Shown: one piece after another, positions 23,187 through 42,311 of the stretch
How positions within the stretch are numbered: the first letter of the stretch is position 1
How the letters are laid out: each line of letters starts with the position of its first letter
Origin: Bacteriovorax sp. Seq25_V
Lineage (GTDB): Bacteria; Bdellovibrionota; Bacteriovoracia; Bacteriovoracales; Bacteriovoracaceae
Reading direction: 5' to 3'
Assembly (NCBI RefSeq): GCF_000447795.1
Contig: NZ_AUNI01000021.1
Span: 248,001-312,000, forward strand
Length of the DNA: 64,000 nt
The notes under the pieces: model-generated
What the model was told of the DNA's origin: nothing
What the model saw: the letters and a program-made list of their open reading frames with translations, nothing else
Databases searched by the model: none
Translations under genes and position numbers: made by a program

Positions 23187-23870
23187 ATGTTAGACACAAA
23201 TATTAATGATAAGAAAATTGAAGTTGTCGATTTTGATTTAGATGCGTTTGATATTGAAGATATTCCATTTAAGCCAATTAATGAAGGACTAGGTTTTCAC
23301 CATAATGGGCAAGCTCAAAAAAATGAGCTACATATTCATAAAAAAGTATATGACCAAGTGATTCAAAAACCAGCTGTTGAAGAAAGAGCTATCCCTAGTG
23401 AATTAAAAGCTTTTTATTCTCAAACAACTACTGCAAGTCCTAAGGTTAATAAAGAAATAAAAATCTTTGAAAAAGTCGAGAAGGATGCAACTAAAGTTAG
23501 TCGTTTAATGGCATTTATAACTGATGTAATCATTGTTCTAATGCTTGTTTCAGTTATTTTCTCATTGATGTTTATTTCTACAACAATGACAATTTCTGAT
23601 TTTGTGAGCCAGTTGATGCTAACATCGAATATCGTTTTTCCTATTGTCTTATTTGTTTTAATTTATAATATCTACTCACTTGCGATGGGGTTCAGTCAAA
23701 CAGTCGGTCAAAAAATATTTAAGACAAAGACAAAATACAATAGAGAAATGAACATTGGATTTATCGTAAAAAGATCAATGTTAGAGCTGGTTTCAATTCC
23801 AATGATTGGAATTCCATACTTGATGCAAATGGATGCTGAGCTATTAAAAAATAAGGTTATTAGAGCGTGA
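23187..23870 (+). CDS. RDD-family inner membrane protein
   Basis: 227 residues. The first roughly 100 residues are polar and acidic, apparently cytoplasmic, with no signal peptide. The rest carries three hydrophobic segments (about 109-131, 143-168, 200-218). The first begins with an R-L-M-A-F-I-T-D pattern, the R-x-x-A-x-x-x-D form that names the RDD family. Function of the family is poorly known; transport of small solutes or ions has been proposed for some. AGGAG ribosome site; the stop overlaps the rfaE2 start by four bases. Confidence 0.75.
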   Translation: MLDTNINDKKIEVVDFDLDAFDIEDIPFKPINEGLGFHHNGQAQKNELHIHKKVYDQVIQKPAVEERAIPSELKAFYSQTTTASPKVNKEIKIFEKVEKDATKVSRLMAFITDVIIVLMLVSVIFSLMFISTTMTISDFVSQLMLTSNIVFPIVLFVLIYNIYSLAMGFSQTVGQKIFKTKTKYNREMNIGFIVKRSMLELVSIPMIGIPYLMQMDAELLKNKVIRA

Positions 23871-24313
23871 GTTTTGAAACTTTAGAATCAATTAGAGCAA
23901 ATAAAAAAATTGTTTTTACCAACGGTTGTTTTGATATCCTTCATCGTGGTCATGTCGCTTACCTTAATGATGCCCGTGAACAGGGAGATTTACTTGTTGT
24001 TGGAGTTAACTCTGATGCAAGTGTGAAAAGACTTAAAGGTGAAGATAGGCCAATAAATAATGAGCTTGATAGAAAGTTCATGCTTGAAAATTTAAAGGCA
24101 GTAGATTTTGTTTTTGTTTTTGAAGAAGACACACCTTATGAATTAATTAAAAAAATTCAACCAGATGTTCTTGTTAAGGGCGGGGATTGGAAAGTTGAAG
24201 ATATCGTGGGTCATGATATTGTAGCGATGAAAGGTGGAGTAACAAAAAGTTTGCGCTTTGAAGATGGTTACTCAACGACTGGTTTAATTAATCAAGTTCA
24301 AGGTCGATCGTAA
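23867..24313 (+). CDS. rfaE2: D-glycero-beta-D-manno-heptose 1-phosphate adenylyltransferase
   Basis: 148-residue nucleotidyltransferase that converts heptose-1-phosphate and ATP to ADP-heptose, a precursor for LPS core and some glycoproteins. Seen: TNGCFDILHRGHVAYL at 18-33 including the HxGH motif (HRGH, 26-29), R-P-I-N at about 62-65, and V-K-G-G-D-W near 103-108. It corresponds to the C-terminal half of HldE; the kinase half (RfaE1) is not in the window, so the two activities are on separate proteins. GTG start overlapping the previous stop. It could supply ADP-heptose to the GT9 enzymes at 34-37.5 kb. Confidence 0.93.
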   Translation: MSFETLESIRANKKIVFTNGCFDILHRGHVAYLNDAREQGDLLVVGVNSDASVKRLKGEDRPINNELDRKFMLENLKAVDFVFVFEEDTPYELIKKIQPDVLVKGGDWKVEDIVGHDIVAMKGGVTKSLRFEDGYSTTGLINQVQGRS

Positions 24314-28966: not shown

Positions 28967-28986
28967 AAAAGCGCTCGTTAGAGCGC
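28965..28986 (-). terminator. Terminator overlapping the recN stop codon
   Basis: GCGCTC (28971-28976) and GAGCGC (28981-28986) pair around GTTA. Read on the minus strand, the hairpin starts within the last recN codons, includes the TAA stop and is followed by six T residues. On the plus strand the tail is poor in T, so its effect on lpxH is weaker. Confidence 0.8.
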
Positions 28987-30591
28987 TTGCATTTCTTTAA
29001 TATATTTAGGCATTTTAGGCTTTTCGATATGACGAACTTGAGACTCTGTCCTTACTTCACTATTAATCTCAACTGACTCTTTTTCAACCCACAGCAACTG
29101 ATCAGAAAAATTCGCAATCTGTGGAAGGTGAGTGATCGCAATTACTTGGCTACCTCGTGAAACTTCCTGAAGTGCCTTACCGATAGTAATTGCCGTCTCT
29201 CCACCAATCCCAGTGTCGATTTCATCAAAGAGGAAAACACTAATAGATTCGGTTGTACTGAGTACTTGTCTCAGGGCAAGCAGGATACGTGAAAGTTCCC
29301 CTCCCGATGCAATTTCCTTAATTGGATGATAGCCTTCTCCTGGGTTGGTAAGGGCATAGAAATCCAACTTAGAAATTCCTGATGGCATTAGTGTATTAGC
29401 TTTTGAAATACGAATATCGATAACAGCCCCTTTCATATTAAGAGCTTGGATAAGTTTCGTTAAAGATTTCGAAAGTTCTGCTGCTTTCGTCACCCTATTC
29501 TCGTGAAGCTGTGTAGCTATTTTATTACAGATATCGTGTTGATTGTTAATAGCTTTCATGGTCTTGTTGATTTCTGTATCAACAACTTCAATCTCTGAAA
29601 ATTCTTTTTGATATTTTTCAAGAACTTGAATCAGTCCTTCAGTATCAGTATTGAATTTTCTTTTAAGACGCTGGTACTCATCAAGACGATCTATAATCTC
29701 TTCGACGGAATCTTCTGGAGCCTCATCATTTGAAAGTTTTGTTATTTCAAAAGAAATATCGTCGAGTTCAGCCTTAAGATTTGAAAATCTGGCGTGAATT
29801 GAATCATCAACACTTATAGTATCAAGAAGTCTCTCTGCACGAGACAAAATTTCTGTCGCACTGTTGTTAGACTCACTAAGCATGAAGTTAATTTCATTCA
29901 ATGTCTTTTGATTCTTTTCGTAATTTAAGATTTTATCCTTTTTGGATTTTAATTCATTTTCCTCTGAGGGTTCAGGACTTAATCCTTCAATTTCATTAAT
30001 TTGGAACTCTAAAAAATCCTTTCTTTCAAGAGACTTATTTTTAAATTCTTGAAGATCAATTAATTTAGCTTCAAGTAGTTTAAGTTCGTTATAACTATTT
30101 TTATAATCATTATAAAGCTCACTGTGACCAGAGAAGTTATCTAGTAGTTTAAGTTGATAATCATCTGAAAGTAGTTTTTGATTTTCAAATTGCCCAACAA
30201 GGTCGATGAACTTTCTTGCAACTTGTGTGAGAATATTGAGAGGACAAGATTGGAAGTTTAAGAATGATTTAGACTTTCCATTATTGTAAATAAGTCTCTT
30301 AATTACGATATCATCTTCACAAGGAAATCCGATAATATCAAAGAATGCACGAGACTTCTCATCGTTACAAGTAAAGGTAGCCTCAATTGAAGCGAACTCC
30401 GAGCCAGATCTTACTAACTTCTTATCGGCACGTGCACCAAATATCATTTGAAGTGCGTCGAGGATTAAACTTTTACCCGATCCTGTTTCACCAACAATAG
30501 AATTAAAGTGTTCATTGAAATTAATTTGTTGATTAGTAAAAGTTGCAAAATTTTGTAGCTTTAATGTTTGAAGATTTAATCTTGCGCTCAT
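28978..30591 (-). CDS. recN: DNA repair protein RecN
   Basis: SMC-like ATPase of 537 residues involved in double-strand break repair. Seen: GETGSGKS Walker A at 34-41, a long central coiled-coil region (about 150-350), the S-G-G-E-L-S-R ABC signature, and the F-D-E-I-D-T-G-I-G-G Walker B/D-loop near 455-465 with the I-T-H-L-P-Q-I H-loop. Length is a little under the usual 550. It is the last gene of the minus-strand run, three bases after nadK; nadK-recN is a pairing known in several bacteria. Confidence 0.96.
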   Translation of the reverse strand: MSARLNLQTLKLQNFATFTNQQINFNEHFNSIVGETGSGKSLILDALQMIFGARADKKLVRSGSEFASIEATFTCNDEKSRAFFDIIGFPCEDDIVIKRLIYNNGKSKSFLNFQSCPLNILTQVARKFIDLVGQFENQKLLSDDYQLKLLDNFSGHSELYNDYKNSYNELKLLEAKLIDLQEFKNKSLERKDFLEFQINEIEGLSPEPSEENELKSKKDKILNYEKNQKTLNEINFMLSESNNSATEILSRAERLLDTISVDDSIHARFSNLKAELDDISFEITKLSNDEAPEDSVEEIIDRLDEYQRLKRKFNTDTEGLIQVLEKYQKEFSEIEVVDTEINKTMKAINNQHDICNKIATQLHENRVTKAAELSKSLTKLIQALNMKGAVIDIRISKANTLMPSGISKLDFYALTNPGEGYHPIKEIASGGELSRILLALRQVLSTTESISVFLFDEIDTGIGGETAITIGKALQEVSRGSQVIAITHLPQIANFSDQLLWVEKESVEINSEVRTESQVRHIEKPKMPKYIKEMQAL

Positions 30592-30594
30592 TTT

Positions 30595-31488
30595 TTACCT
30601 GCGTCCGTGTTTGAATTTTTCTTTTAAAGTTCCAAAGTACTCTCTGTTAGGATTTGTTATCAAACTAATTTGAGATTTAGAAGATTTTATAATTTTTACT
30701 TTTTGATTTTTCGATATTGTTATATTTTCTTGTCCATCAAGCGTTAAAGACAATTCACTTTCATCTTTTGGTACCTTGATCCATATGGCCTGGTTGTCTG
30801 GAAGCAGCAATGGCCTATGAGTGAGTGCATGTGGACAAATAGGAGTTAATGTAATTGCTCTAACTTGTGGATGGACAATTGGTCCTCCCGCCGCAAGCGA
30901 ATAGGCTGTCGAGCCAATAGGACTACTTACTATTAATCCATCGCCTGCGAGATTATAGATCGTTTCAGAATCTGTTTCTAGAGTGATAGAGAACATTCTC
31001 GAAATTCCGTTCTTAGAAACAACAGCATCATTGATAAAAATCGCTTCTTTGATTTTCTTATTGCCTTCAAAAATTTCCGCTTTGAAAAGAGGCACTTTAT
31101 TTAGATGGTATTTACCCTTCAAAACAAGCTCTAGATCATCATAAAAATCTTGTCGTGAAAACTCTGTAATGAATCCAAGGTTTCCCATGTTTATTCCAAA
31201 AATGGGAGTCGATTTAGAAGACTTGTGTCTACATACACCAATAAGTGTTCCATCTCCGCCAAGAGTAATAATAAGATCTGATTCTTTTAAAAGTTCTGCT
31301 TTTGAAAGAAAATGAATTTTTGGCTTATTACTTTTAAAGATTTTAGATACTCGTTCTGCTTCTGAGTCATATAGGCAAACTTCAACTTTTCTTCTCTTGA
31401 GCCACTCATATAAGTTTGGGAGCATTGTCATTAAATCATGAACAACTCTAGGTTTTAATACAATTCCAATTTTCTTAATTTGTGTCAT
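30595..31488 (-). CDS. nadK: NAD kinase
   Basis: 297-residue enzyme that phosphorylates NAD to NADP. Seen: the catalytic GGDG at 77-80, the G-I-N-M-G-N-L-G-F substrate loop near 104-112, the F-I-N-D-A-V-V motif near 150, and D-G-L-I-V-S-S-P-I-G-S-T-A-Y-S near 183-197. Full length and all key residues intact. It overlaps the receiver-domain gene upstream by 14 bases and lies three bases before recN. Confidence 0.96.
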   Translation of the reverse strand: MTQIKKIGIVLKPRVVHDLMTMLPNLYEWLKRRKVEVCLYDSEAERVSKIFKSNKPKIHFLSKAELLKESDLIITLGGDGTLIGVCRHKSSKSTPIFGINMGNLGFITEFSRQDFYDDLELVLKGKYHLNKVPLFKAEIFEGNKKIKEAIFINDAVVSKNGISRMFSITLETDSETIYNLAGDGLIVSSPIGSTAYSLAAGGPIVHPQVRAITLTPICPHALTHRPLLLPDNQAIWIKVPKDESELSLTLDGQENITISKNQKVKIIKSSKSQISLITNPNREYFGTLKEKFKHGRR

Positions 31489-31852
31489 TACTTTCTCTTA
31501 ATATGTTATCAATAACTAAATTTACATCTGTAAATGGTTTGCTGTAAATGGCGCAGTTATACATTTTAGCCTTTTCTATGATCTGTGGAGAACTATAAGC
31601 TGTAATTATGCGAAATTTTGTAGCGATATCATCTAATGTGAATTTTGACTTCGACTCCTCAATGATATCAAAGCCTGTTATGTCTTGAAGCATTAAGTCA
31701 CAAATGATCAAATCAAAATTCTCATCGTTAATATGTGCTATCGCCTTCGTTCCACTACTTACAGCAGTAACTTGATGACCTCTTCTTTCAAGAAGCATCT
31801 TTAAAGTTTTTTGAATTAGAGGCTCATCCTCGACTAAAAGTATATTTTTCAT
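31475..31852 (-). CDS. Single-domain response regulator
   Basis: 125-residue CheY-like receiver with no output domain. Seen: acidic pair D9/E10, phospho-acceptor D52, the T of I-T-A-Y near 88 and lysine of S-K-P-F near 105. It lies six bases after the histidine kinase gene and overlaps nadK by 14 bases. Likely phosphorylated by the adjacent kinase; lacking a DNA-binding domain it must act by protein contact, for example on the flagellar motor or on an enzyme. Confidence 0.93.
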   Translation of the reverse strand: MKNILLVEDEPLIQKTLKMLLERRGHQVTAVSSGTKAIAHINDENFDLIICDLMLQDITGFDIIEESKSKFTLDDIATKFRIITAYSSPQIIEKAKMYNCAIYSKPFTDVNLVIDNILRESNDTN

Positions 31853-31858
31853 TTTTAC

Positions 31859-33433
31859 CTATTTTTGAATAGTAATAAGAAACTCTGTCCAACCAGGTAG
31901 ATTTTCAACAAGTGAAATATTTGCATTAATTTTCTCACAAAGACGCTTACAAATAGAAAGACCAAGCCCTGTTCCCGTCTCTTTGGTCGTCACAAAAGGA
32001 TTAAAAATATCTGCCTTTTTATCTGTTGGAATACCTGGACCATTGTCACGAATTGATATTGTGAGATAGTTCTCATGATCTGAAACATCGAGGTGAATCT
32101 CCTTCGATGGAAGATTGCTTTCTTTGAGTGACTGGGAGCTGTTGATAACTAGATTAAATATAATCTGGCTCAAATATGTTGGATTTGTGAGTAGCTCAAT
32201 ATCTTCATTCGTATTAATAAAATTAATATTCTTTTTGAAAAACTTAGACTCACTTTTCGTTAGGGTAATCGTTTCTGTAAGTAGTGATCTAAGGTTAATT
32301 TTTGTATTATGATCATTTTCGTTATAAAGCTCTGAGAAGCTTTTAATAATCATTTGGCAACGACTCGCACTTAAGCCAACTTCTTTGATTGTCGAAAGTA
32401 TATCTTGATCTTTGTCATGAGAGTCATAAGATAACATTTCAGTTGATATGCTAATACCGAAAAGAGGATTTGAGAGTTCATGGCTAAGAGTGTTTAAAAG
32501 TTCACCCATTATCATCAATCTTGCATGATGAAATAGTTCCGCGTCATTAGAACTATCTTCTGTCGTCTCATAGGTAATGGTGACGTATTCGTTGCTTACA
32601 GTTTTTGTTGAGTTCTTGGCCTTCTTGTCTGACTCAAGATTAATGAGTTTGGAAGTAATACTTAAATATATTGGAAAATCTTTGATGATTTTTTCAATTT
32701 GAGTTTTCTGATTAAAAATTAGTGTATTCTTTGCGATTAAGGAAAACTTAATTTTACTATACGCTATTAAATTAGAAAAAAACTCTTTCTCTTCTTTTTG
32801 AGTACTGAATAAATCTCCACGAGAAGCAATGACAACAATCGATAGATCTGTGTATTCTAATTCTTTGGCCAGGAATGATCCAATGACATGTATGTCATCT
32901 GATCCAATATCTTTTAAATCGAAATGCTTGTTTTTACTTTTCTTAATCTTAGAGAAAATATTGTTGTAAGAGGCAACAGTGATAATCTCATGCTGATCAT
33001 TAAAAAAGGAGTGAACATTCGATTGTCCTTTTTCGTGAATAAATACTTGGAAGAAGCTATAGTGTTTGAAATTTGGAATTTTATTAAAGTTAGCAATTAC
33101 TTGATTTATATGGGTAGAGCTTTTAAATAGTCTTTTAGTGATCTCTTCTAAGTTTTCAAGTGTGCTTTTTTCTTCAAGCTCTAAACTAATATTTGAAATA
33201 TTTATTAAATGACCTTTGAGCTCATCTTCTGAGTTAAAGTATATTTCTGAGTTATCAACACTGTTAAATTCTAATGAATTACTTCTTAGAGTATATTGAG
33301 ATATAGATTTTTTTGAATTTATAGAAAATTGAGATGAATCAATGAAGGCTAATTCATGATTAGCCTTCTTATCGATATATAAAGTTAGATCTTTCCGCTT
33401 TCTATCATTAGAGGAATTGCTTTGATTTTCCAC
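31859..33433 (-). CDS. Soluble sensor histidine kinase
   Basis: 524 residues from GTG, no membrane segment. Seen: an N-terminal region of about 270 residues of which roughly 95-235 look like a GAF-type sensor; a dimerisation/phospho-acceptor helix with S-H-E-L-S-N-P at 317-323 (H318); the N-box F-N-L-V-I-N-S-S-Q-S-L; D-N-G-P-G-I-P; and a G2 box T-G-T-G-L-G-L-S. It overlaps the upstream gene by 49 bases, which is unusually long, so the true start may lie somewhat further in. It is next to a stand-alone receiver, its likely partner, in an operon of candidate flagellin-modification genes. Confidence 0.9.
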   Translation of the reverse strand: MENQSNSSNDRKRKDLTLYIDKKANHELAFIDSSQFSINSKKSISQYTLRSNSLEFNSVDNSEIYFNSEDELKGHLINISNISLELEEKSTLENLEEITKRLFKSSTHINQVIANFNKIPNFKHYSFFQVFIHEKGQSNVHSFFNDQHEIITVASYNNIFSKIKKSKNKHFDLKDIGSDDIHVIGSFLAKELEYTDLSIVVIASRGDLFSTQKEEKEFFSNLIAYSKIKFSLIAKNTLIFNQKTQIEKIIKDFPIYLSITSKLINLESDKKAKNSTKTVSNEYVTITYETTEDSSNDAELFHHARLMIMGELLNTLSHELSNPLFGISISTEMLSYDSHDKDQDILSTIKEVGLSASRCQMIIKSFSELYNENDHNTKINLRSLLTETITLTKSESKFFKKNINFINTNEDIELLTNPTYLSQIIFNLVINSSQSLKESNLPSKEIHLDVSDHENYLTISIRDNGPGIPTDKKADIFNPFVTTKETGTGLGLSICKRLCEKINANISLVENLPGWTEFLITIQK

Positions 33434-34005
33434 TGTGCTAGGTTATCGACAAGTTCATACTCTAGCAAGTCACAAAGCATGATTATGTCATTTTTCTCTT
33501 TCGCTGGAATCAAGGCCTTGAGTACAGAAAGAAGGTGAATCTCAAGGTTTCTAATGGTTTCATTATTCTTAAAGAAAGTAGGATTGTGATTTTTTACTGT
33601 GCGATGAACTTTAGAGATCAGTTGAATATAAAGATCAATTAGGTCAATGAGATCAGAGAAATTTGCATTTGCTTCATCTATATTGTTCTCATTATAGAAA
33701 CCAACTATTTCATGAATTTTAGCATTCAATGTATCAATATAAGTATTTGAATCTTGAAGTGCTTCCATCGCTATCTCAACAGAGTTTTTAATCTCTAAAG
33801 TAGGATTACCTAAATTATCTAGATCCACGTCGGCGAACTCACCGAGCAAATCGACTGGAATCGTCTCACCATGAATTGTTACAGCTGTAACGATTTCGTT
33901 GTTCTTAAGCCCTTCTCTTTCGATTAAGTTAATTGCTTCGTGAAGTGTAATCGATTGATTGTCATTAAGCTCGAGAACTTCTCTACTTATACTTACTGTA
34001 ATCAT
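33385..34005 (-). CDS. Hypothetical helical protein in the glycosyltransferase operon
   Basis: 206 residues, acidic, no signal peptide or membrane segment. The first roughly 55 residues look beta-rich; from about residue 75 the protein is nearly all helical with regular hydrophobic heptads, which recalls export chaperones such as FliT/FlgN but without a convincing motif. It is coupled on both sides: ATGA overlap with the GT9 gene upstream and a 49-base overlap with the kinase gene downstream. A structural or chaperone partner of the glycosyltransferases is a guess from position. Confidence 0.65.
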   Translation of the reverse strand: MITVSISREVLELNDNQSITLHEAINLIEREGLKNNEIVTAVTIHGETIPVDLLGEFADVDLDNLGNPTLEIKNSVEIAMEALQDSNTYIDTLNAKIHEIVGFYNENNIDEANANFSDLIDLIDLYIQLISKVHRTVKNHNPTFFKNNETIRNLEIHLLSVLKALIPAKEKNDIIMLCDLLEYELVDNLAQWKIKAIPLMIESGKI

Positions 34006-35693
34006 GCATCTGTCCTTGATGAAGTTAATTTTGTAGTTTTATCTTTTTTGATATTAAGTTTATTTAAGAAATCATAAATAATACTCGAGGATGTTGAGAT
34101 CTCCTGATAAACATAGAAAGCAGACTCAGTCATTTCTACGATATTAGTGCCACTTAAGTTTGATTTGGCAACTTTAGCATAATCAACAATTGGCGAAAGA
34201 AGTGGGTATGACGTAATTAGTACATCAAGTAAGCGGTCAATCTCATCAATCTTTAAAGAGTAGTTTTTAATTGATTGAATATTTGGCGAATTATTTGAAA
34301 TTTCTTCAAGTATAAAACGACTATATTTTTTACCAAATTCTGCAAGCTCGTATAGGTTTTCCGCAGCACCAGGCATCATGGAAAGAGCTTCAGTTGCATT
34401 CTTTGAAAGCTTCGGAAGATTTATAGTTGGTTCAACTTCGCTGAATGAGTATGACCAAATTACGTTATAAAAATCTCTAAATACTTCCTTGGCGCTTTTA
34501 TTCTCATCGAGAAGATTTTTGAGCAGTAACTGGCCTAGATTATTTGTTGTCGTTCTATAAATATCAACAGAATTTAAATTGAACTCAGTTACATCTTTTC
34601 TTAGTTTTTCGATATCAATCACGTTTGCAGTAAGAAGCTGTTTTGACATCGCTATTGCAGTATGAAATGGCACGTCAGCATGACATTGAAAATATGAACA
34701 TTTTGTATCAGGGAAGCAAGGGTAACAGTTTGTTTTTGGTGCTAGTACATAGTTGTTTAAAGAGTAAGGAGCAGTCTCTTGAACTCTAACAGTACCAAGT
34801 GAAATAGTTAAACTCTTCACATTCTTGAAACTAAAAAGATGACTCAACATAGAGTCATGACCGATGAATAAGAAGTTCTCATCAACAAGATCGTAAACTT
34901 CAGTTAGTTTCTTTCCTAATAGGGGTGTAATTCTATCTTTAAATTTTGAAAGTATAGGAGACGCTGTCATTTTCTCGTATGAGGGCGTATCTCCATTTGA
35001 ACCAGCAATATAAACCGTTAAATCGGCATTAGATTTTAAAAGATTATAAATTACCTCTGTCCATTTTGACTCAGCCCATCTTTTTTTATCGAGCGATGCA
35101 AATGGGTGAATTAGGGCTTTGTTTTTTAATTCTTTCGAATACTCTTTTGTATTTAGATGAGTATTGATCTTCTTAACACCAATAATAGCTGCGAAAAGAT
35201 CGACAAGATTAAATGGATTCAAATTTCCTCTCATTACAGATGAGAATAAATATTGTGACCATTTGTCCTGAATAACTTGTTCGTGTTTTTCGTTAAAGAA
35301 TGGCCCAAGTTTATATTCACTTCTTATAAGAGAGTGTAGATATGTTGATGACTTTGAGAACGATAGATTAATACTAGCTGCAATTGGACGCTTGTTGATG
35401 AGTGCAATTTGAGAAGAAATATTTTTTAAAGATCCCTTTACTCCATCTCTAAGATTTATCGCCGTCTTTAGATCAAGAGTAATACACTCATCGAAAACTT
35501 GGTCGATAATAAACTGAATTGGCTCCGCAAATTGCTTTCTTGCAACAAGCTGAACCTTTATTTCTGGATGATTGATCTTCAATAGACGAACTGCTTGTGC
35601 AGTTTGTAGAATATCACCAATCCTAGTTAACTGAAGAATTGATAACCATTTTTCTGCTGTCTCAGTTGTCTTATTCTCCTGTTTTGCACCCAT
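34002..35693 (-). CDS. GT9-family (heptosyltransferase-like) glycosyltransferase with helical C-terminal extension
   Basis: 563 residues. The first roughly 345 form a GT-B fold of the ADP-heptosyltransferase family: L-T-R-I-G-D at 22-27, a nucleotide-sugar region with IHPFASLDKKRW at 195-206, and GHDSMLSH at 278-285, equivalent to the GT9 D-x-x-x-x-H. Four cysteines (C323, C326, C332, C337) sit just after the GT-B core, resembling the metal-binding cluster of protein O-heptosyltransferases. A helix-rich tail of some 200 residues follows and has no counterpart in LPS heptosyltransferases. No signal or membrane segment. Target is probably protein, possibly flagellin; this is inference. Confidence 0.75.
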   Translation of the reverse strand: MGAKQENKTTETAEKWLSILQLTRIGDILQTAQAVRLLKINHPEIKVQLVARKQFAEPIQFIIDQVFDECITLDLKTAINLRDGVKGSLKNISSQIALINKRPIAASINLSFSKSSTYLHSLIRSEYKLGPFFNEKHEQVIQDKWSQYLFSSVMRGNLNPFNLVDLFAAIIGVKKINTHLNTKEYSKELKNKALIHPFASLDKKRWAESKWTEVIYNLLKSNADLTVYIAGSNGDTPSYEKMTASPILSKFKDRITPLLGKKLTEVYDLVDENFLFIGHDSMLSHLFSFKNVKSLTISLGTVRVQETAPYSLNNYVLAPKTNCYPCFPDTKCSYFQCHADVPFHTAIAMSKQLLTANVIDIEKLRKDVTEFNLNSVDIYRTTTNNLGQLLLKNLLDENKSAKEVFRDFYNVIWSYSFSEVEPTINLPKLSKNATEALSMMPGAAENLYELAEFGKKYSRFILEEISNNSPNIQSIKNYSLKIDEIDRLLDVLITSYPLLSPIVDYAKVAKSNLSGTNIVEMTESAFYVYQEISTSSSIIYDFLNKLNIKKDKTTKLTSSRTDA

Positions 35694-35696
35694 GTC

Positions 35697-35843
35697 TTAT
35701 CCTTGCTCTTCAAGAGCGGAGCTCATTAGTAGTAGTGTAAAATCATCGTCATTGAGTTTTTCTTTACGAGCTAATTTAGCTTTAACTTGATTAAGCTTTT
35801 CCATGAACTCTTTTTTGAAAACCTCATTATCATTAGATGTCAT
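35697..35843 (-). CDS. Small 48-residue protein between the two GT9 genes
   Basis: ATG at 35841-35843, stop at 35697-35699, 48 residues, charged and helical with sequence beginning M-T-S-N-D-N-E and ending E-E-Q-G. An AAGGA lies about eight bases before the start. It overlaps the end of the upstream GT9 gene by 11 bases and ends three bases before the ATG of the next GT9 gene, which fills the gap exactly and is why I accept it. Nothing is known of its function; a small adaptor or merely a translational link are both possible. Confidence 0.65.
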   Translation of the reverse strand: MTSNDNEVFKKEFMEKLNQVKAKLARKEKLNDDDFTLLLMSSALEEQG

Positions 35844-37521
35844 ACTGATTTTCCTTTGAGAATTTTGTTCTCTGGGAGTCTTTTGTTCTTCTTACAAAGT
35901 CACTTGCGGTTTTTACAATATCAACTTGGACTTGAATGTCGGCTTTCAGTTCATAAATAAGAGATTCCATTTCTCGAGCTGACTCAAGAAGATTAGAAGT
36001 ATTTAGCGCTTCCACTCTTGCTCTAAATCTTAAAAGTGGGATTGCCATGAACTGTGACTCAACTTCGCATTCTGCTAAAAGCTCTGTTAGATTCTTAAGA
36101 AACTGTCCTGTTTTGGCTTTTGAGCCATCAACTTGTAATAATGATCTCAATGTACCAAGAAGGTTTTTTGAAACTTCTGTAATTGCTAGTTTTGTATCTG
36201 TAAGCCAGCTTTCAAGTTGTGTTGTTCCGTCAATAACAAGTGCATTATAAATTTCTAAATCTTCACTACCTGTAAATTTCTTAAGTAATAGTTGGCGAGA
36301 TATTAGTCTTTCAATTTCTGCATTTTGGTCGACAGCGCCATAAGCTAGCTCATATCTTGTCCCAAGCTCATCGTTATTTACTGAATAGACAGAGATGCCT
36401 TGAGCGAATTTATGATTTGATAAGTCTTCAGCGAAAAGAATGTTTTTAGCAAGAGCAACAATGTCTTCCGTTGAAAGTAGAATGTTCTGAGCCTGTAGAC
36501 TCATATCATTTTCCACAGTCTTTTTACTAAATACGCGTTTTGAAACGGTTGGTGTTACAATGAAGCTTTCTTGGTTTAGACTTCCTTGTTTAAAGAGTGG
36601 TGATTCTCCAAGTGATATTTCTATTGTTGGAGTATTAGTTAAATCAGCGAGATGTTTGATTGCTGTGTCTGGTGTAATTAAAAGATCAAGATTCATTAGA
36701 ACTGAATTAAGGGCCAAGAAGTCTGCTTCAACAGATACGAGGGAGTTATTAAATTCAGAGTTAATGATTGAAACTAAATTTCTCTCTTGCTCTGTTGGCG
36801 CAGCCAGTAAGATAGGGAAGAAATTAGGACTCATATATAGAGCATCGATTAAATTTATTAACTGTTCTTTTGATAATGACTTGTAATCAGTTGAAGCTGT
36901 TAGTTGAATACCAATTAACTTCACGTCATTACCGTTATTTTCTACTTTTCTGAGTTCTGCAAAGTTCGTCGCTGAAGATTTGTTGTATTCTTCTTTAGTC
37001 TTTAGAACAAAAGACTCATTTGCAGGCTTAAGGTTCGCCATGTTTAGATATGTATCAGTGAATGTAACAGGAGCATATTTAACAGATGTTAAAATGTCAT
37101 TCATTACAATTGCCCATTCCGAGCTGTATTCGATGTTACAAGTTTCGTTGAAGCGAATACCAATATGTTTAGAAGACTTTGTTTTAAGAAGAGATGTTAG
37201 GTGCGTAGACACTCTGTCGTTAGATAAGTTGTAAACAGCATCCCAAGTTTTTCCTGTTACCTTTCCAATATCTCTCTGAAATTCATCTAGGGCAAATCCA
37301 TCAGAGAAAATCTTGTTCTTTTTATAAGTTAAAATTTTCTTACGATCGATTGTATGTACTTCAGTGATACCTTTAAGGTTGAGTGCAGCCTTTTCAAATT
37401 CTTTTAACACGAGAAGAGATATTTTAATCTCTGGATATTTTGCGATAAATGATCTGATAATATGTCCCGAAGCAAAAATGTCTCCGTTTCTTTTCAGATT
37501 GATTATTAAGAGTTCTTTCAT
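35833..37521 (-). CDS. GT9-family (heptosyltransferase-like) glycosyltransferase, second paralogue
   Basis: 562 residues, same architecture as the downstream paralogue: N-terminal INLKRNGDIFASG at 7-19, GIQLTASTDYKSLS in the donor-binding half, and ITPDTAIKHLADL at 282-294 as the GT9 signature. It lacks the four-cysteine cluster seen in its partner. A helical tail of over 200 residues follows, ending in basic residues. One base separates it from the Maf-like gene upstream. Two GT9 enzymes of equal length in one operon suggest sequential transfers or a heterodimer. Cytoplasmic. Confidence 0.75.
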   Translation of the reverse strand: MKELLIINLKRNGDIFASGHIIRSFIAKYPEIKISLLVLKEFEKAALNLKGITEVHTIDRKKILTYKKNKIFSDGFALDEFQRDIGKVTGKTWDAVYNLSNDRVSTHLTSLLKTKSSKHIGIRFNETCNIEYSSEWAIVMNDILTSVKYAPVTFTDTYLNMANLKPANESFVLKTKEEYNKSSATNFAELRKVENNGNDVKLIGIQLTASTDYKSLSKEQLINLIDALYMSPNFFPILLAAPTEQERNLVSIINSEFNNSLVSVEADFLALNSVLMNLDLLITPDTAIKHLADLTNTPTIEISLGESPLFKQGSLNQESFIVTPTVSKRVFSKKTVENDMSLQAQNILLSTEDIVALAKNILFAEDLSNHKFAQGISVYSVNNDELGTRYELAYGAVDQNAEIERLISRQLLLKKFTGSEDLEIYNALVIDGTTQLESWLTDTKLAITEVSKNLLGTLRSLLQVDGSKAKTGQFLKNLTELLAECEVESQFMAIPLLRFRARVEALNTSNLLESAREMESLIYELKADIQVQVDIVKTASDFVRRTKDSQRTKFSKENQYDI

Positions 37522-37522
37522 C

Positions 37523-38221
37523 TTAAAATTCTCCGTTACTCAAATGAGTATATGCTAAAAGTAAGTGGTCTAAGTTGTTAGTTAATGCAGGTTTTGATAA
37601 AACATTTTCCTGAATGAAGGAATCTAAGCTTTGTGCGTCTGCATCCGTATATAAATATGATTTTAATTCACGATTAGTAATGTTCATTGCAACATCTTTG
37701 ACCAGTGAAGAAGCTTCATAGTTTAAAAAACTTTTAAAGTAATCAGAGTACAGATTAAATGATGGTGGGTGACTTACCATTACTGGTTTTGTAATTAGAA
37801 ACTTTGCTAGTGTTATATCACTGTAAATAGTCTCTAAATCTTCTCCCGAAAATACTTTGATGTTTTTATTTGGAAAGAGGTGGTTTGCGATACAATCTCT
37901 ATATACTTCTTCGTTTGGTTCTATTACAACAACTTGATAATCATTACCGTGATATGATTCTAGTTTTCTACAAATTTCATAAACGTGATAAGCAAACCCT
38001 AGTCCAAATACAAGAACGTGCTTATTGTTTTGAAGTCTTTCATCGTATGTAGATACAATGGCCTGAGCCTCTTTAGCTGGATTATAAACAGAGTGTAGGT
38101 GTACGTTGTTTATAACAGGTACCTTTAGATTATTACGAGACGTCTTGATCTCATAAGAATCAATCTTAATACTTTTCATGTGTCTTCCTCTAATGGAACT
38201 AGATAAATTGCTTGCTTCCAT
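37523..38221 (-). CDS. Maf/MptE-like (DUF115-type) motility-accessory protein
   Basis: 218 or 232 residues: two in-frame ATGs (38221 and 38179) each have a good ribosome site (GAGGA and AGAGGAAG). Core motif VFGLGFAYH (57-65 counting from 38179) followed about 30 residues later by V-V-V-I-E-P-N-E resembles the Rossmann half of motility-associated factor (Maf) proteins, which add nonulosonic acids to flagellin in Campylobacter, Aeromonas and others. It is much shorter than full Maf (about 600 residues), so only one domain is present. First gene of the nine-gene run, directly after the fliDST-like genes. Confidence 0.65.
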   Translation of the reverse strand: MEASNLSSSIRGRHMKSIKIDSYEIKTSRNNLKVPVINNVHLHSVYNPAKEAQAIVSTYDERLQNNKHVLVFGLGFAYHVYEICRKLESYHGNDYQVVVIEPNEEVYRDCIANHLFPNKNIKVFSGEDLETIYSDITLAKFLITKPVMVSHPPSFNLYSDYFKSFLNYEASSLVKDVAMNITNRELKSYLYTDADAQSLDSFIQENVLSKPALTNNLDHLLLAYTHLSNGEF

Positions 38222-38256
38222 AGTTCCTCATCCTTAAGGTCTTTATGGTTAATAGG

Positions 38257-38277
38257 GGGAACCAATTCTTGGTTCCC
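38257..38277 (-). terminator. Hairpin between the fliT-like and Maf-like genes
   Basis: Nine-base arms GGGAACCAA (38257-38265) and TTGGTTCCC (38269-38277) close on three bases. On the minus strand it lies about 60 bases past the fliT-like stop. The tail after it is not T-rich, so it is at best a partial terminator or an mRNA-stabilising hairpin between the flagellar and glycosyltransferase parts. Confidence 0.5.
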
Positions 38278-38338
38278 TTAGATTCTATTAATGATAGCTT
38301 ATTTTTGCTTCATCTTGCAATGAAGTTTTTATATGGGG

Positions 38339-38740
38339 TTACTTTTTTACATTAGATAAGTCGTAGCCCTTAAATGACTGACGATTCTTGAATACACTAG
38401 CGATTTCTTGAGTAGTTTGCTCTTTTTGATTTGTTAGAATTTCCGTAGTCTCTATGTCAAGTTTATCATTAACGTAAACAATCTGATTAACCTCTTGTGA
38501 CCAAGTCTTAAAGATTTGGATGTGTTCAGGTGTTACAGTCTTTAGATCAAATTTCGCAATCTCTTCTTCTACATTTGTTTGAACTTTTCTGATAATATTA
38601 ATCAGTCTTTCTCTGTTATCGATAATCTGATCAACTAGGTCAACTTTACCGTTTTGAGCCGCTGCTAGAAGTCCCTGACTTGCATTCGTTAGCGCTTCTA
38701 GTAGATCTAGGTGCTGCATGATATTTTCAAATACTTTCAT
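38339..38740 (-). CDS. FliT/FlgN-like flagellar export chaperone (putative)
   Basis: 133 residues, almost wholly helical, acidic, no signal peptide. FliT and FlgN sequences diverge strongly, so the call rests on size, helicity, the N-L-L-x-A-A/L-x-x-A-x-x-G pattern in the first 30 residues and position: its ATG follows the fliS TAG directly in a fliD-fliS-x order, where fliT sits in many genomes. FliT binds FliD and the export apparatus. Confidence 0.65.
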   Translation of the reverse strand: MKVFENIMQHLDLLEALTNASQGLLAAAQNGKVDLVDQIIDNRERLINIIRKVQTNVEEEIAKFDLKTVTPEHIQIFKTWSQEVNQIVYVNDKLDIETTEILTNQKEQTTQEIASVFKNRQSFKGYDLSNVKK

Positions 38741-39139
38741 CTATGCTCCTTGTTTCGTCTGTCCCGAAACTTTAAGTGACTTAATTGCTTCCTGCCATCC
38801 TTCATATAATGTTGTTAAAACATTAAGGCATCCTTCTAGTGGCTCTTTATCAATTTTGATATTTGCTTGAGTACTAGAGAAGAGAATGAAGTCATAAAGT
38901 GAAGATAATTCTTTTGCAATATCCCCACCAACTTCAAAATCTAAGCTGTTGTTTAGCTCGATGACGATGTCCTGTAGTTTTCCAATGGCTTCTCCTTTAA
39001 GAGCAATTTCTCTTTTGTCGATAGCTTCCATTGCTTTCTTGCAATTCTTGATTGCAGCTTGATAGAGCATGAGTAAGATCTGCTCTTTACTCGCAGTGTT
39101 TACATGTGTTTTCTTATAAGCGCCAAGACCGTAGCTCAT
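38741..39139 (-). CDS. fliS: Flagellin export chaperone FliS
   Basis: 132 residues, helical. Seen: the N-terminal Y-x-x-x-x-V-N-T-A-S-K-E-Q-I-L-L-M-L-Y-Q-A-A pattern at about 7-30 (V-N-T-A-S/T-P-x-x-L-I-x-M-L-Y-D in the family) and the D-F-x-x-G-G-D-I-A-K-E-L-x-x-L-Y-D block near 76-90. FliS binds the flagellin C-terminus to prevent premature polymerisation in the cytoplasm. AGGAGG ribosome site; 14 bases downstream of fliD. Confidence 0.93.
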   Translation of the reverse strand: MSYGLGAYKKTHVNTASKEQILLMLYQAAIKNCKKAMEAIDKREIALKGEAIGKLQDIVIELNNSLDFEVGGDIAKELSSLYDFILFSSTQANIKIDKEPLEGCLNVLTTLYEGWQEAIKSLKVSGQTKQGA

Positions 39140-39153
39140 GACTTCCTCCTAAA

Positions 39154-40542
39154 TTACCCAAGTTGCTGTACGTCTGGAGCTCCTGCTCCTAATCCTGCAA
39201 CGCCAGCTCCCTGTGCTCTAATTCTTGATATTGTTCCTTCTAACCTAGAAAATTTATCTTTTAAGTTTTTCTCTTTTTGTTCGAGCATTCTTTCTCTCTG
39301 CTTTATTCTTCTATCTATACCTTCAATGTTCCCTTCTAAGCTTTTTTTTCGTGACTGTAAGATTCCATCAGGGTAACGAAGAGATGAATTTGCAAGATCG
39401 TTTAAGTTATCGATAAAGCCGCTTGTCTTAATTCCACCTTCTTTAAAGTGACCAGTTAGAATTTGCGAAACTTTTTCGTAATTACTCTCAAGCTCAGCTT
39501 TAAATTTTTCCTGATCAAACTTCAATGTACCATCACGTTGAAATGCGACTCCGATATCACCAATGCGAAAATTTCCAAATTGAGTTTCAATATCTTTAAA
39601 AACCGCGCCTCTGATCTTTGACTCTAGTGTTTGCAGAATAATGTCTCCACCTAGAGTTCTCGATGTGTCTGTTTTTTCATCAAGGTTATTCTGTGCTTTG
39701 ATGAAATTTAATACTGCGTTTACTTGGTCTACGACAGTATTAACTTTTTCTCCAACAGCTTGAGTGTCTTCACTAATGTTAATAGAGAATTCTTCACCTG
39801 GTTTCGCTTTTTTGAGATCAATCGTAACACCTGGAATAAGATCACTTGTCTTATTCTCTGGAAGTTCAATTTCAAAACCATCTAGCTTAACTTTTGCATC
39901 TTGAGCTTCTCTTTCGAATTCAACGTAGAGGTCATCAACTCCATCAACGAAATAAAAATATGGGAATTCTGCTTTGTTGGCATCCCCTGTATCTTTTAAG
40001 CTTAAAATTAGTCTGTGTGGATTTTCAGAGCCGCTACCATCGTTGATAACAGAAGCACGTAGTCCGCTTTCAGAATCTTTATTAATTAACTTTGCAATTT
40101 TTGTTAAACTTGAGTTTTCTGAATCAACGTAGATTTCTTTGGTATCACCATTTGGAAGTTTGTATTGAATAAAACCCACTCCAACGTAACTCTCATCAGG
40201 GTCTTCAAATCCTGAGGACATTGCAGATGATTTTTGTGCTAGTTGTACAACTTCAAATTGATAGTTTGCAGGTTCCGCAATATTCTTGTCAGCACTGATG
40301 CCGACAATTTCTTTGTTTGTTTCGATTTTAAGTTCGCGAAGAGATCTGGCGTTACCAGCTTTGTTGAGAGTTCCACGCATTGATTCAACAAGGCCAGATA
40401 GTTCTCCTACGAGACCTTTCTTGTCCTCAATCTTCCCTTTACGAGTCTCCATATTCTTAATAGGGATCCTCTCAGCATTCATAATTTGCTGAACGATATC
40501 TTTTGGAAGACCTGTGTTAATGGAACCAAAGGCAATGCTCAA
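39154..40542 (-). CDS. fliD: Flagellar filament cap protein FliD
   Basis: 462-residue hook-associated protein 2 that caps the filament and promotes flagellin folding. Seen: N-terminal I-N-T-G-L-P-x-D-I-V-Q-Q-I-M near 8-21 and the R-x-x-x-I-K-x-M-E-x-R-K segment, a variable middle, and a long coiled-coil-like C-terminus near 385-440. The start is TTG at 40542, supported by a consensus AGGAGG six bases before it and by the expected N-terminal sequence; no nearby ATG fits. First gene of fliD-fliS-fliT-like. Confidence 0.93.
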   Translation of the reverse strand: MSIAFGSINTGLPKDIVQQIMNAERIPIKNMETRKGKIEDKKGLVGELSGLVESMRGTLNKAGNARSLRELKIETNKEIVGISADKNIAEPANYQFEVVQLAQKSSAMSSGFEDPDESYVGVGFIQYKLPNGDTKEIYVDSENSSLTKIAKLINKDSESGLRASVINDGSGSENPHRLILSLKDTGDANKAEFPYFYFVDGVDDLYVEFEREAQDAKVKLDGFEIELPENKTSDLIPGVTIDLKKAKPGEEFSINISEDTQAVGEKVNTVVDQVNAVLNFIKAQNNLDEKTDTSRTLGGDIILQTLESKIRGAVFKDIETQFGNFRIGDIGVAFQRDGTLKFDQEKFKAELESNYEKVSQILTGHFKEGGIKTSGFIDNLNDLANSSLRYPDGILQSRKKSLEGNIEGIDRRIKQRERMLEQKEKNLKDKFSRLEGTISRIRAQGAGVAGLGAGAPDVQQLG

Positions 40543-40727: not shown

Positions 40728-40754
40728 AAAAAAGGCCCGCTGGGTAGGCGGGCC
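40728..40754 (-). terminator. Strong minus-strand terminator without an obvious gene
   Basis: GGCCCGC (40734-40740) pairs with GCGGGCC (40748-40754). On the minus strand it is followed by TTTTTT then A-T-rich sequence, a textbook intrinsic terminator. No minus-strand gene ends here; the next rightward gene is on the plus strand and fliD starts 190 bases later. See findings. Confidence 0.8.
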
Positions 40755-40811: not shown

Positions 40812-42311
40812 GTGGAAACTTTAGAAAATAAGTCAGGTATTTTATATCAAAAATCGAAATTCTTTTTATATCGAGCACTTACGTACTTTGGTTTTTTGCT
40901 ATTACCTATCTATTTGCAGAAAGAAGTAGAGATTTCGAGACATGTCTCAATCGTTGTAATGGTCCTCTATTGTATGTTTATTATGGGGCAGTGGTTTCTT
41001 TTAGGTAAAGAGATTGATCATCGATTAAAAATTTACTTCAGAGTAAATTCATCAATAGATAGAGTGGTATATCGATTGTTTATGGGGATGTTCTTCATGG
41101 CAATCTACTTTAACATCATAAATCTGTTTCCAGGTAAGTGGGTATACAATATCTTTTGGGCTACTTGGGTATTTCTAGGCTTGTTTTATTCTTGGCCAAC
41201 TCGAGGAAAAATTATTCAAGAATCTGTAAGCTCTAACTTTCATGAGTATAAATACTTGGACAGGTTTGAGAAAACAATTCTATTGCTAATTGTTGCTACT
41301 TTTATTGCATCAGTTCCTGAGTTTCCAAATCTCGCTACAGCAAACTCTTTAAAGCTTTTCTTTGACCCAAGTGAGCGTGTCTCTGGTGCTTTTTGGAGCT
41401 TTATGCAGGTTAATTACTATCCGTTTAAAAAATATCCTGAGCTTTTTAAAATTGCCTGGTGTGTGCATTTTTACTTTCTAACTATTTCAATGTTTCTCAT
41501 GACGTTTTATGCGATCCTTCGTTATTTTGTTTCGAGAAGGCTTGCTGTATTGGGTGTGTTTGCACTTATCTCTTCATGGTCCTTTTCTAAAATACTTGCG
41601 TTAAACTTTGGAAATGCGTTATTGACGACATATTCTATCCTTTGGATGTGGACACTTTTGTGGTGTACAAAGAGTTCGACCTATAGGTCTGGATTGTTTG
41701 TTGGGCTTGTAGGAGCTTGGGGAATCGTTATTGATAAGACGAATATGATTCTGTTTGTAGTTCAGTTATTTGCGCTTCATACTTTGTTTCTCAAGAATAA
41801 AACTTATTGGTATCGCCGACAATTCTTCAAATATAACACATTTGGTGTGATCCTTGCGGTTATGGTCTTCTTGCTTTCAACAAGTACGTTAGAATTTAAG
41901 TTTAGTGATTCTTTTGCAACAGGGTTTTTAGAGCTTTGGGCCCTAATAGAAAGAAAGGCATTCTTTATTTTGAGTATCTTTGGGTTTGCTGTTTTCTTTG
42001 GAAAAGTTCTTTATCAGAAAAAAGATAATAATAAGCTTATCAATTTACCAACGGATAAAATGAATGAATTTGCCTTCGGGTTTGGACTATTATTTTTGTC
42101 AGGTATCATCTTCGAAAGTCGATTCTTTAAAGATTTCTCAATTCTTTGGATTCTGGCATTTTTAAGTGTAATCCCGATAGAGCTTATCTTCCAGAAGATT
42201 AGAAGGCTGAGATCGAGTCGAAACTTTATCTATGTTATTTATATCCTAATTTGTTTGTTGGATTCTCACTTTGAGGGTCGTATTAAGATTCTGTTAAGAA
42301 TGTTTAACTAG
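40812..42311 (+). CDS. Polytopic integral membrane protein of unknown function
   Basis: 499 residues from GTG, with about ten to twelve hydrophobic segments spread over the whole length, separated by short basic loops. Rich in Phe, Trp and Tyr. No motif of known transporters or of the lipopolysaccharide O-antigen polymerase and glycosyltransferase (GT-C) families is clear, although large aromatic-rich membrane proteins with a luminal loop (about 155-205) recall GT-C enzymes. No strong ribosome site. It stands alone between the fliD operon and an intergenic region. Confidence 0.7.
   Translation: METLENKSGILYQKSKFFLYRALTYFGFLLLPIYLQKEVEISRHVSIVVMVLYCMFIMGQWFLLGKEIDHRLKIYFRVNSSIDRVVYRLFMGMFFMAIYFNIINLFPGKWVYNIFWATWVFLGLFYSWPTRGKIIQESVSSNFHEYKYLDRFEKTILLLIVATFIASVPEFPNLATANSLKLFFDPSERVSGAFWSFMQVNYYPFKKYPELFKIAWCVHFYFLTISMFLMTFYAILRYFVSRRLAVLGVFALISSWSFSKILALNFGNALLTTYSILWMWTLLWCTKSSTYRSGLFVGLVGAWGIVIDKTNMILFVVQLFALHTLFLKNKTYWYRRQFFKYNTFGVILAVMVFLLSTSTLEFKFSDSFATGFLELWALIERKAFFILSIFGFAVFFGKVLYQKKDNNKLINLPTDKMNEFAFGFGLLFLSGIIFESRFFKDFSILWILAFLSVIPIELIFQKIRRLRSSRNFIYVIYILICLLDSHFEGRIKILLRMFN

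Follow-up and report, generated by a model that had tools for sequence, protein, structure and literature searches.

In the genome of Bacteriovorax sp. Seq25_V, five adjoining genes that follow those for FliD, FliS and a FliT-like protein are, on balance, likely to form a module for the cytoplasmic O-glycosylation and assembly of flagellin, judging from sequence comparisons. The DNA analyzed (hereafter, the window) comprises 64,000 nt of contig NZ_AUNI01000021.1 (positions 248,001–312,000, forward strand). The five genes encode a stand-alone Maf N-terminal domain protein (Maf-N), two glycosyltransferases of family GT9 with helical tails (GT9A and GT9B), a microprotein located between them, and a helical protein. 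A literature search found no description of such a glycosylation module, and it is probably undescribed. The genes belong to a run of nine minus-strand genes (28978–38221) reported in a first-pass annotation of the window, and all nine open reading frames (ORFs) were confirmed with the coordinates and strand claimed. Among the flagellar genes that were said to precede this run, FliD and FliS are clear, and the FliT-like gene is a weak match in the right place. The flagellar genes and the module are as follows:

39154–40542, minus strand: FliD, filament cap, first gene of the syntenic block, its place constant in the family loci (PF07195, 6.6e-43; PF02465, 6.6e-13)
38741–39139, minus strand: FliS, flagellin export chaperone (PF02561, 2.9e-37; TIGR00208 above cut-off)
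38339–38740, minus strand: FliT-like, position conserved (PF05400 weak, E = 0.0078)
37523–38221, minus strand: stand-alone Maf N-terminal domain protein, 232 aa (homologs match PF20157)
35833–37521, minus strand: GT9A, GT9 domain and helical tail (PF01075, 27.4 bits; cut-off 22)
35697–35843, minus strand: conserved microprotein (ORF48), 48 aa (homologs in GT9A–GT9B gaps; codon-like substitutions)
34002–35693, minus strand: GT9B, GT9 domain and helical tail at about residues 380–563 (PF01075, 51.8 bits; cut-off 22)
33385–34005, minus strand: helical protein (AlphaFold2 model; lost with flagella in genus g27)

To compare gene order, 40 loci, each up to ~20 kb, were read from ~35 genera of the window's family (Bacteriovoracales/Halobacteriovorax-like). 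The order is nearly constant: FliD, FliS, FliT, Maf-N, GT9A, GT9B, helical protein, histidine kinase (HK), receiver (RR), NadK and RecN, flanked on the opposite strand by the gene of a 499-aa protein (up499) on one side and by LpxH-like (PilZ) and flagellin genes on the other. The search for the same order in related genomes, proposed in the first-pass annotation, therefore succeeded across ~35 genera. A profile search of contigs identified Bacteriovorax sp. MedPE-SWde (GT9B identity 64%) and Halobacteriovorax sp. ARS37 as the nearest named relatives. Outside the family, the tail-bearing GT9B occurs elsewhere in the phylum in at least eight families (f2, f8, f11, f12, f15, f17, f20 and f24), again after FliD-FliS-FliT wherever the contig shows that region, in a simpler form of the locus. 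There, FliT is followed by a TPR protein (~330–440 aa, Pfam TPR), the gene of which is absent from the locus in the window's family, giving the order FliD-FliS-FliT-TPR-(Maf-N-GT9A)-GT9B-helical protein. Family f11 contains the full set TPR-Maf-N-GT9A-GT9B-helical protein-HK-RR (L116, L117). Across the whole family, and in many families of the phylum beyond it, the five-gene set comes after FliD-FliS-FliT, which supports the suggested flagellar role.

The module is also lost with the filament. Flagellin (PF00669) was found in 124 of the 129 family genomes and is missing in five, from genera g26 and g27. The GT9B tail domain occurs in 103 of the 129, but all five flagellin-less genomes lack it, so the flagellar reading withstood the search for tailed GT9s in flagellum-less relatives that had been set beforehand as its refutation. 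At the g27 site (L181, L182 and partly L185), up499 is followed by HK, RR, NadK (and RecN), and then by LpxH-like and rfaE2 genes on the opposite strand. FliD, FliS, FliT, Maf-N, GT9A, the microprotein, GT9B and the helical protein are gone as a single block, together with flagellin and PilZ, whereas HK, RR, nadK and recN still stand side by side, and rfaE2 and the LpxH-like gene are also kept. This natural deletion settles the borders of the module. Conversely, GT9B and the helical protein are retained without HK-RR in three loci of the family (L063, L064, L070) and in four of other families (L104, L107, L113, L115). The kinase/receiver pair, to which the GT9 genes had been thought to be coupled, can therefore be separated from them in both directions: it is a neighbor and was rejected as a module member. 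Genus g26 was not counted as a second independent co-loss because nadK is also missing from that assembly, and the region may be unassembled; G005 was likewise not counted. The first-pass annotation had further taken rfaE2 in the window as a hint of heptose. The gene adjoins flagellins in >20 loci and is housekeeping; because it is retained without flagella in g27, it is ruled out as a sign of heptosylated flagellin.

GT9A and GT9B are 562–563 aa long, and both exceed the PF01075 cut-off and carry helical tails of ~180 residues that start after residue ~380, in agreement with the earlier description of two long-tailed GT9 enzymes. The five other GT9 genes of the genome have ordinary frames (269–378 aa). 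The residues expected of the GT9 family (GD in the N lobe, D/S-xxx-H in the C lobe, and K) are present as RGD, KW and DSH in GT9B and as RGD and DTH in GT9A, and the catalytic residues are intact in the window and in most relatives. The GT9B motifs in the window are RxGD, KxW, DSxxxH and four cysteines (Cys4: C323, C326, C332, C337). In a 29-row alignment of GT9B, Q21, N109, W211, S281 and the cysteines 323, 326, 332 and 337 are invariant, and R24, G26, D27, K204, W206, D280 and H285 are nearly so. The GT9A motifs RGD and DTxxxH, present in the window's genome, were lost in ~13 relatives. The glycosyltransferase (GT) domains of the two proteins are homologous (hhalign, 99.7%), and the tails are probably so (E = 6e-4, probability 28%), which suggests duplication of one tailed ancestor. 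This was the only plausible tail match; hhalign comparisons of the tails with FliS, FliT, flagellin, FliD or the helical protein gave no better than E ~0.01, and homology to these was not accepted. Sequence profiles searched against the PDB returned GT9 structures only, all weak (3tov, 2gt1, 1psw), and those of the tails found neither Maf nor FliS. The catalytic domain, its conserved residues and these matches are shared with the lipopolysaccharide (LPS) heptosyltransferases WaaC and WaaF (GT9), but the tailed enzymes differ from them in their ~180-residue tails, their flagellar operon and their loss with flagella. The bacterial autotransporter heptosyltransferases (BAHT) TibC and AAH are likewise GT9-type enzymes. 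They O-glycosylate proteins and bear four metal-binding cysteines toward the C-lobe end, of which the GT9B cysteines are reminiscent. However, the cysteine spacing in GT9B (323-326-332-337) differs from that of the TibC iron finger (C339, C342, C358, C370; PMC4358343), and no autotransporter is found here. A similar motif is also found in L001, an ordinary GT9 of the same genome; with this and the different spacing, the cysteines can hardly serve by themselves as a mark of BAHT membership, for which an iron finger and a dodecamer are characteristic.

The gene first labeled 'Maf/MptE-like' is related to Maf through the N-terminal domain only: 17 of 30 homologs match PF20157 (Maf_flag10_N; best E 1.1e-6), the window copy itself having no PF20157 match in the Pfam search. 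The Maf catalytic domain PF01973 (Maf_flag10) has no match in the window's own genome, so its place seems to be taken by the GT9 enzymes. The solved structure of Maf has a degenerate Rossmann-like fold as its N domain and, as its C domain, a bundle of helices with weak similarity to FliS and flagellin (PMC11339370). The module layout looks like a Maf protein taken apart, with the N domain as a separate gene, GT9 in place of the Maf enzyme and, by analogy only, the helical tail in place of the C domain. As in Maf of Magnetospirillum, Campylobacter and Clostridium botulinum, a Maf N-terminal domain adjoins fliS/fliD and a helical bundle follows the catalytic part; in contrast to these, PF01973 is absent here, the N domain is encoded separately, GT9 is the only transferase, and the tails have no detectable homology to the Maf C domain.

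The 48-residue ORF noted earlier in the block is genuine and encodes a conserved microprotein. The GT9A–GT9B gap of 139 nt encodes a peptide of 42–75 aa (mostly 42–57) across the family loci, with the motif LsxeDlxxLLLxSLlEEE; homologs are present in ~34 of the 39 gaps examined, with a counterpart in families f2 and f11, and only where both GT9s are present. Its coding nature follows from the distribution of differences over codon positions 1, 2 and 3 (137/70/192 in nine close pairs), and with these homologs the possibility of a spurious ORF was ruled out. The helical protein was modeled with AlphaFold2 (predicted local distance difference test [pLDDT] 90.8) as a beta-grasp-like N domain and a four-helix bundle, for which Foldseek returned no PDB match at E ≤ 0.001.

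In the proposed mechanism, GT9B, the better conserved enzyme, together in most genera with its paralog GT9A, would transfer a sugar from a nucleotide sugar to Ser/Thr of flagellin. The transfer would occur on newly synthesized flagellins, either ahead of or during their delivery to the export gate by FliS, and flagellin rather than FliD would be the acceptor. Docking of the enzymes to flagellin or to its chaperones may fall to the helical tails, Maf-N and the helical protein, joined in sister families by the TPR protein, and the microprotein may link or tune the GT9A–GT9B pair; HK/RR, nadK and recN would be co-transcribed or adjacent neighbors with other functions. Candidate donors are ADP-heptose and a nonulosonic acid, the latter because of a NeuB/CMP-transferase cluster in the genome. 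This nonulosonic acid-type cluster (L180; C21:158000–177900, same contig) comprises NeuB, a CMP-sugar transferase, a DegT aminotransferase and an ATP-grasp protein. The closest working parallel, by analogy, is FlmG of Caulobacter, in which flagellins are bound by the TPR part and not by the isolated GT-B part (PMC7591256). Both systems combine a TPR module with a GT-B transferase for flagellins, and the TPR gene adjoins GT9B in sister families; here, however, TPR and GT9 are separate genes, the GT9 is not the FlmG transferase, and the window's family has no TPR gene. Flagellin O-glycosylation is known to proceed via Maf and FlmG enzymes, so the module, if it works as proposed, would be a third solution, in which the Maf recognition domain persists while GT9 has apparently taken over from the Maf enzyme. 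The phylum includes Bdellovibrio-like predatory bacteria, which hunt their prey by means of flagella.

Every locus was scored for its catalytic residues, the alignment of the most distant families being less secure, and the states were mapped by parsimony on a FliD+FliS+NadK+RecN tree from a quick search. The GT9B catalytic state changed at least nine times, or ~6 times with only the safest cases (L059, L069, L118, L120, the g36/g10/g43 clade and the f17/f24 clade), and that of GT9A six times in a three-state count including absence. Genera g36 and g10 lack Maf-N and GT9A but retain, after FliT and before the helical protein, a 448–452-aa GT9B remnant in which gaps are scattered over the GT domain and the tail is intact. 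Partial motif loss also occurs in single-GT9B families (L112, L113, L114), although the distant alignment makes these cases unsure. Several results thus weigh against glycosylation: a catalytically dead GT9B is kept in several flagellated lineages, Maf-N and GT9A are gone in g36, and the GT9B tail, whose structure was predicted as the first-pass annotation had proposed (pLDDT 87.9), has no Foldseek match in the PDB at E ≤ 0.001 and no fold match to Maf or FliS. To these is added the Ser/Thr value of the flagellin middle region, which drops slightly from 12.4 (n = 43) to 9.0 in dead-enzyme lineages (n = 5) among non-independent sequences; tracking of the GT9B state by Ser/Thr content was not accepted on such a weak trend in few sequences. 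Sugar transfer is unlikely to be the sole function of the GT9 proteins: because catalytic residues were lost repeatedly while tails and gene position persisted, these proteins probably also have a non-catalytic role.

The same decay lends some weight to the view that the tailed GT9s are mainly non-enzymatic assembly factors for flagellin (chaperone or scaffold) on a glycosyltransferase fold, with catalysis secondary or ancestral. We regard this as unlikely, since RxGD, KxW, DSxxxH and Cys4 are clearly constrained in most genera, where a catalytic reason is needed. An intermediate account, to which we give somewhat less than an even chance, would have a phylum-wide filament-assembly module in which a tailed, glycosyltransferase-derived protein is essential, glycosylating flagellin in some lineages and having turned repeatedly into a catalytically dead scaffold for flagellin assembly in others, with the microprotein as a subunit of GT9A–GT9B. 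The classical role of GT9 as LPS heptosyltransferase, together with the nearby rfaE2 and LpxH-like genes, would fit enzymes of surface polysaccharide or LPS core that lie in the flagellar operon by chance or serve an LPS-containing flagellar sheath. This is improbable: flagellum-less g27 loses both tailed GT9s yet keeps rfaE2 and the LpxH-like gene, and five ordinary GT9s exist elsewhere in the genome. Still further down we place the nine-gene regulated unit of the first-pass annotation, with HK/RR controlling glycosylation; tight junctions in most family loci favor it, but survival of HK-RR-nadK-recN without the module in g27, and of the module without HK-RR in the seven loci listed above, strongly disfavors it. 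Natural decay has left lineages with an active pair, a single active enzyme, a dead enzyme or none, which makes it directly testable whether the filament needs glycosylation or scaffolding. The module also adds a conserved microprotein, as well as a tail domain for which no structural relative is known.

The remaining genes are neighbors:

31859–33433, minus strand: soluble histidine kinase (HK) (PF02518, 4.2e-20; PF00512, 2e-7)
31475–31852, minus strand: stand-alone receiver domain (RR), travels with the kinase (PF00072, 1.7e-16)
30595–31488, minus strand: nadK, housekeeping (PF20143/PF01513)
28978–30591, minus strand: recN, housekeeping, block end (TIGR00634, 390.8 bits, just below cut-off 407.85)
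23867–24313, plus strand: rfaE2, heptose-1-phosphate adenylyltransferase (TIGR02199, 206.6 bits; cut-off 181.5)

The statement that the nine genes are joined by overlaps or gaps of a few bases holds for most junctions (-14 to +6 nt): Maf-N/GT9A +1, GT9A/microprotein -11, microprotein/GT9B +3, GT9B/helical protein -4, HK/RR +6, RR/nadK -14 and nadK/recN +3. The helical protein/HK junction is a longer overlap (-49; 33385–33433). This overlap is constant (~49 nt) because the HK-frame start codon falls within the codons for a conserved T/A-Q-W stretch in the helical protein, and it is probably an annotation artefact, the true HK start lying downstream; the case is a caution for operon claims that rest on overlaps. 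A bidirectional terminator-like hairpin (28969–28988) closes the block 3' of recN.

FliT and Maf-N are separated by a 117-nt gap (38222–38338), in which a GGA-loop hairpin CCTTAAGGAWGAGG lies beside the start codon or a short leader ORF:

38226–38239, minus strand: candidate CsrA-type hairpin CCTTAAGGATGAGG, GGA in loop, ending 4 nt before the Maf-N start codon

Upstream of Maf-N, 45 GGA-in-loop hairpins were observed, whereas dinucleotide shuffles gave 16.2 ± 4.0, an excess to which extended Shine-Dalgarno pairing may contribute. CsrA is encoded in the window's genome. Short leader ORFs (7–23 codons) start just past the GGA hairpin in L041, L043, L046 and L047, some overlapping the Maf-N start codon, and in the window the leader ORF looks fused in frame to Maf-N. 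In many genera (~20 loci), a locus-specific element, TTGAC-N15-TGAGGAAAT, precedes Maf-N at fixed spacing; the window's genus instead has a sigma-70-like TTGCAA-N18-TATCAT (38320–38291). A genome-wide promoter class of the form TTGAC-N15-TGAGGAAAT was rejected, as other matches in six genomes look like chance. An Rfam search of 26–41.5 kb gave no match. Between the divergent up499 and FliD, a strong terminator-like hairpin, GGCCCGCCTACCCAGCGGGCC-TTTTTT (40734–40754, minus strand), points at FliD; similar hairpins of other sequence occur in this region in ~17 of 42 loci and may be an attenuator, a small RNA end or a sign of a misplaced start. The up499 gene (40812–42311, plus strand) encodes a protein with abundant hydrophobic stretches and without Pfam or NCBIfam matches; it adjoins FliD in nearly all family loci and is also kept in the flagellum-less g27.

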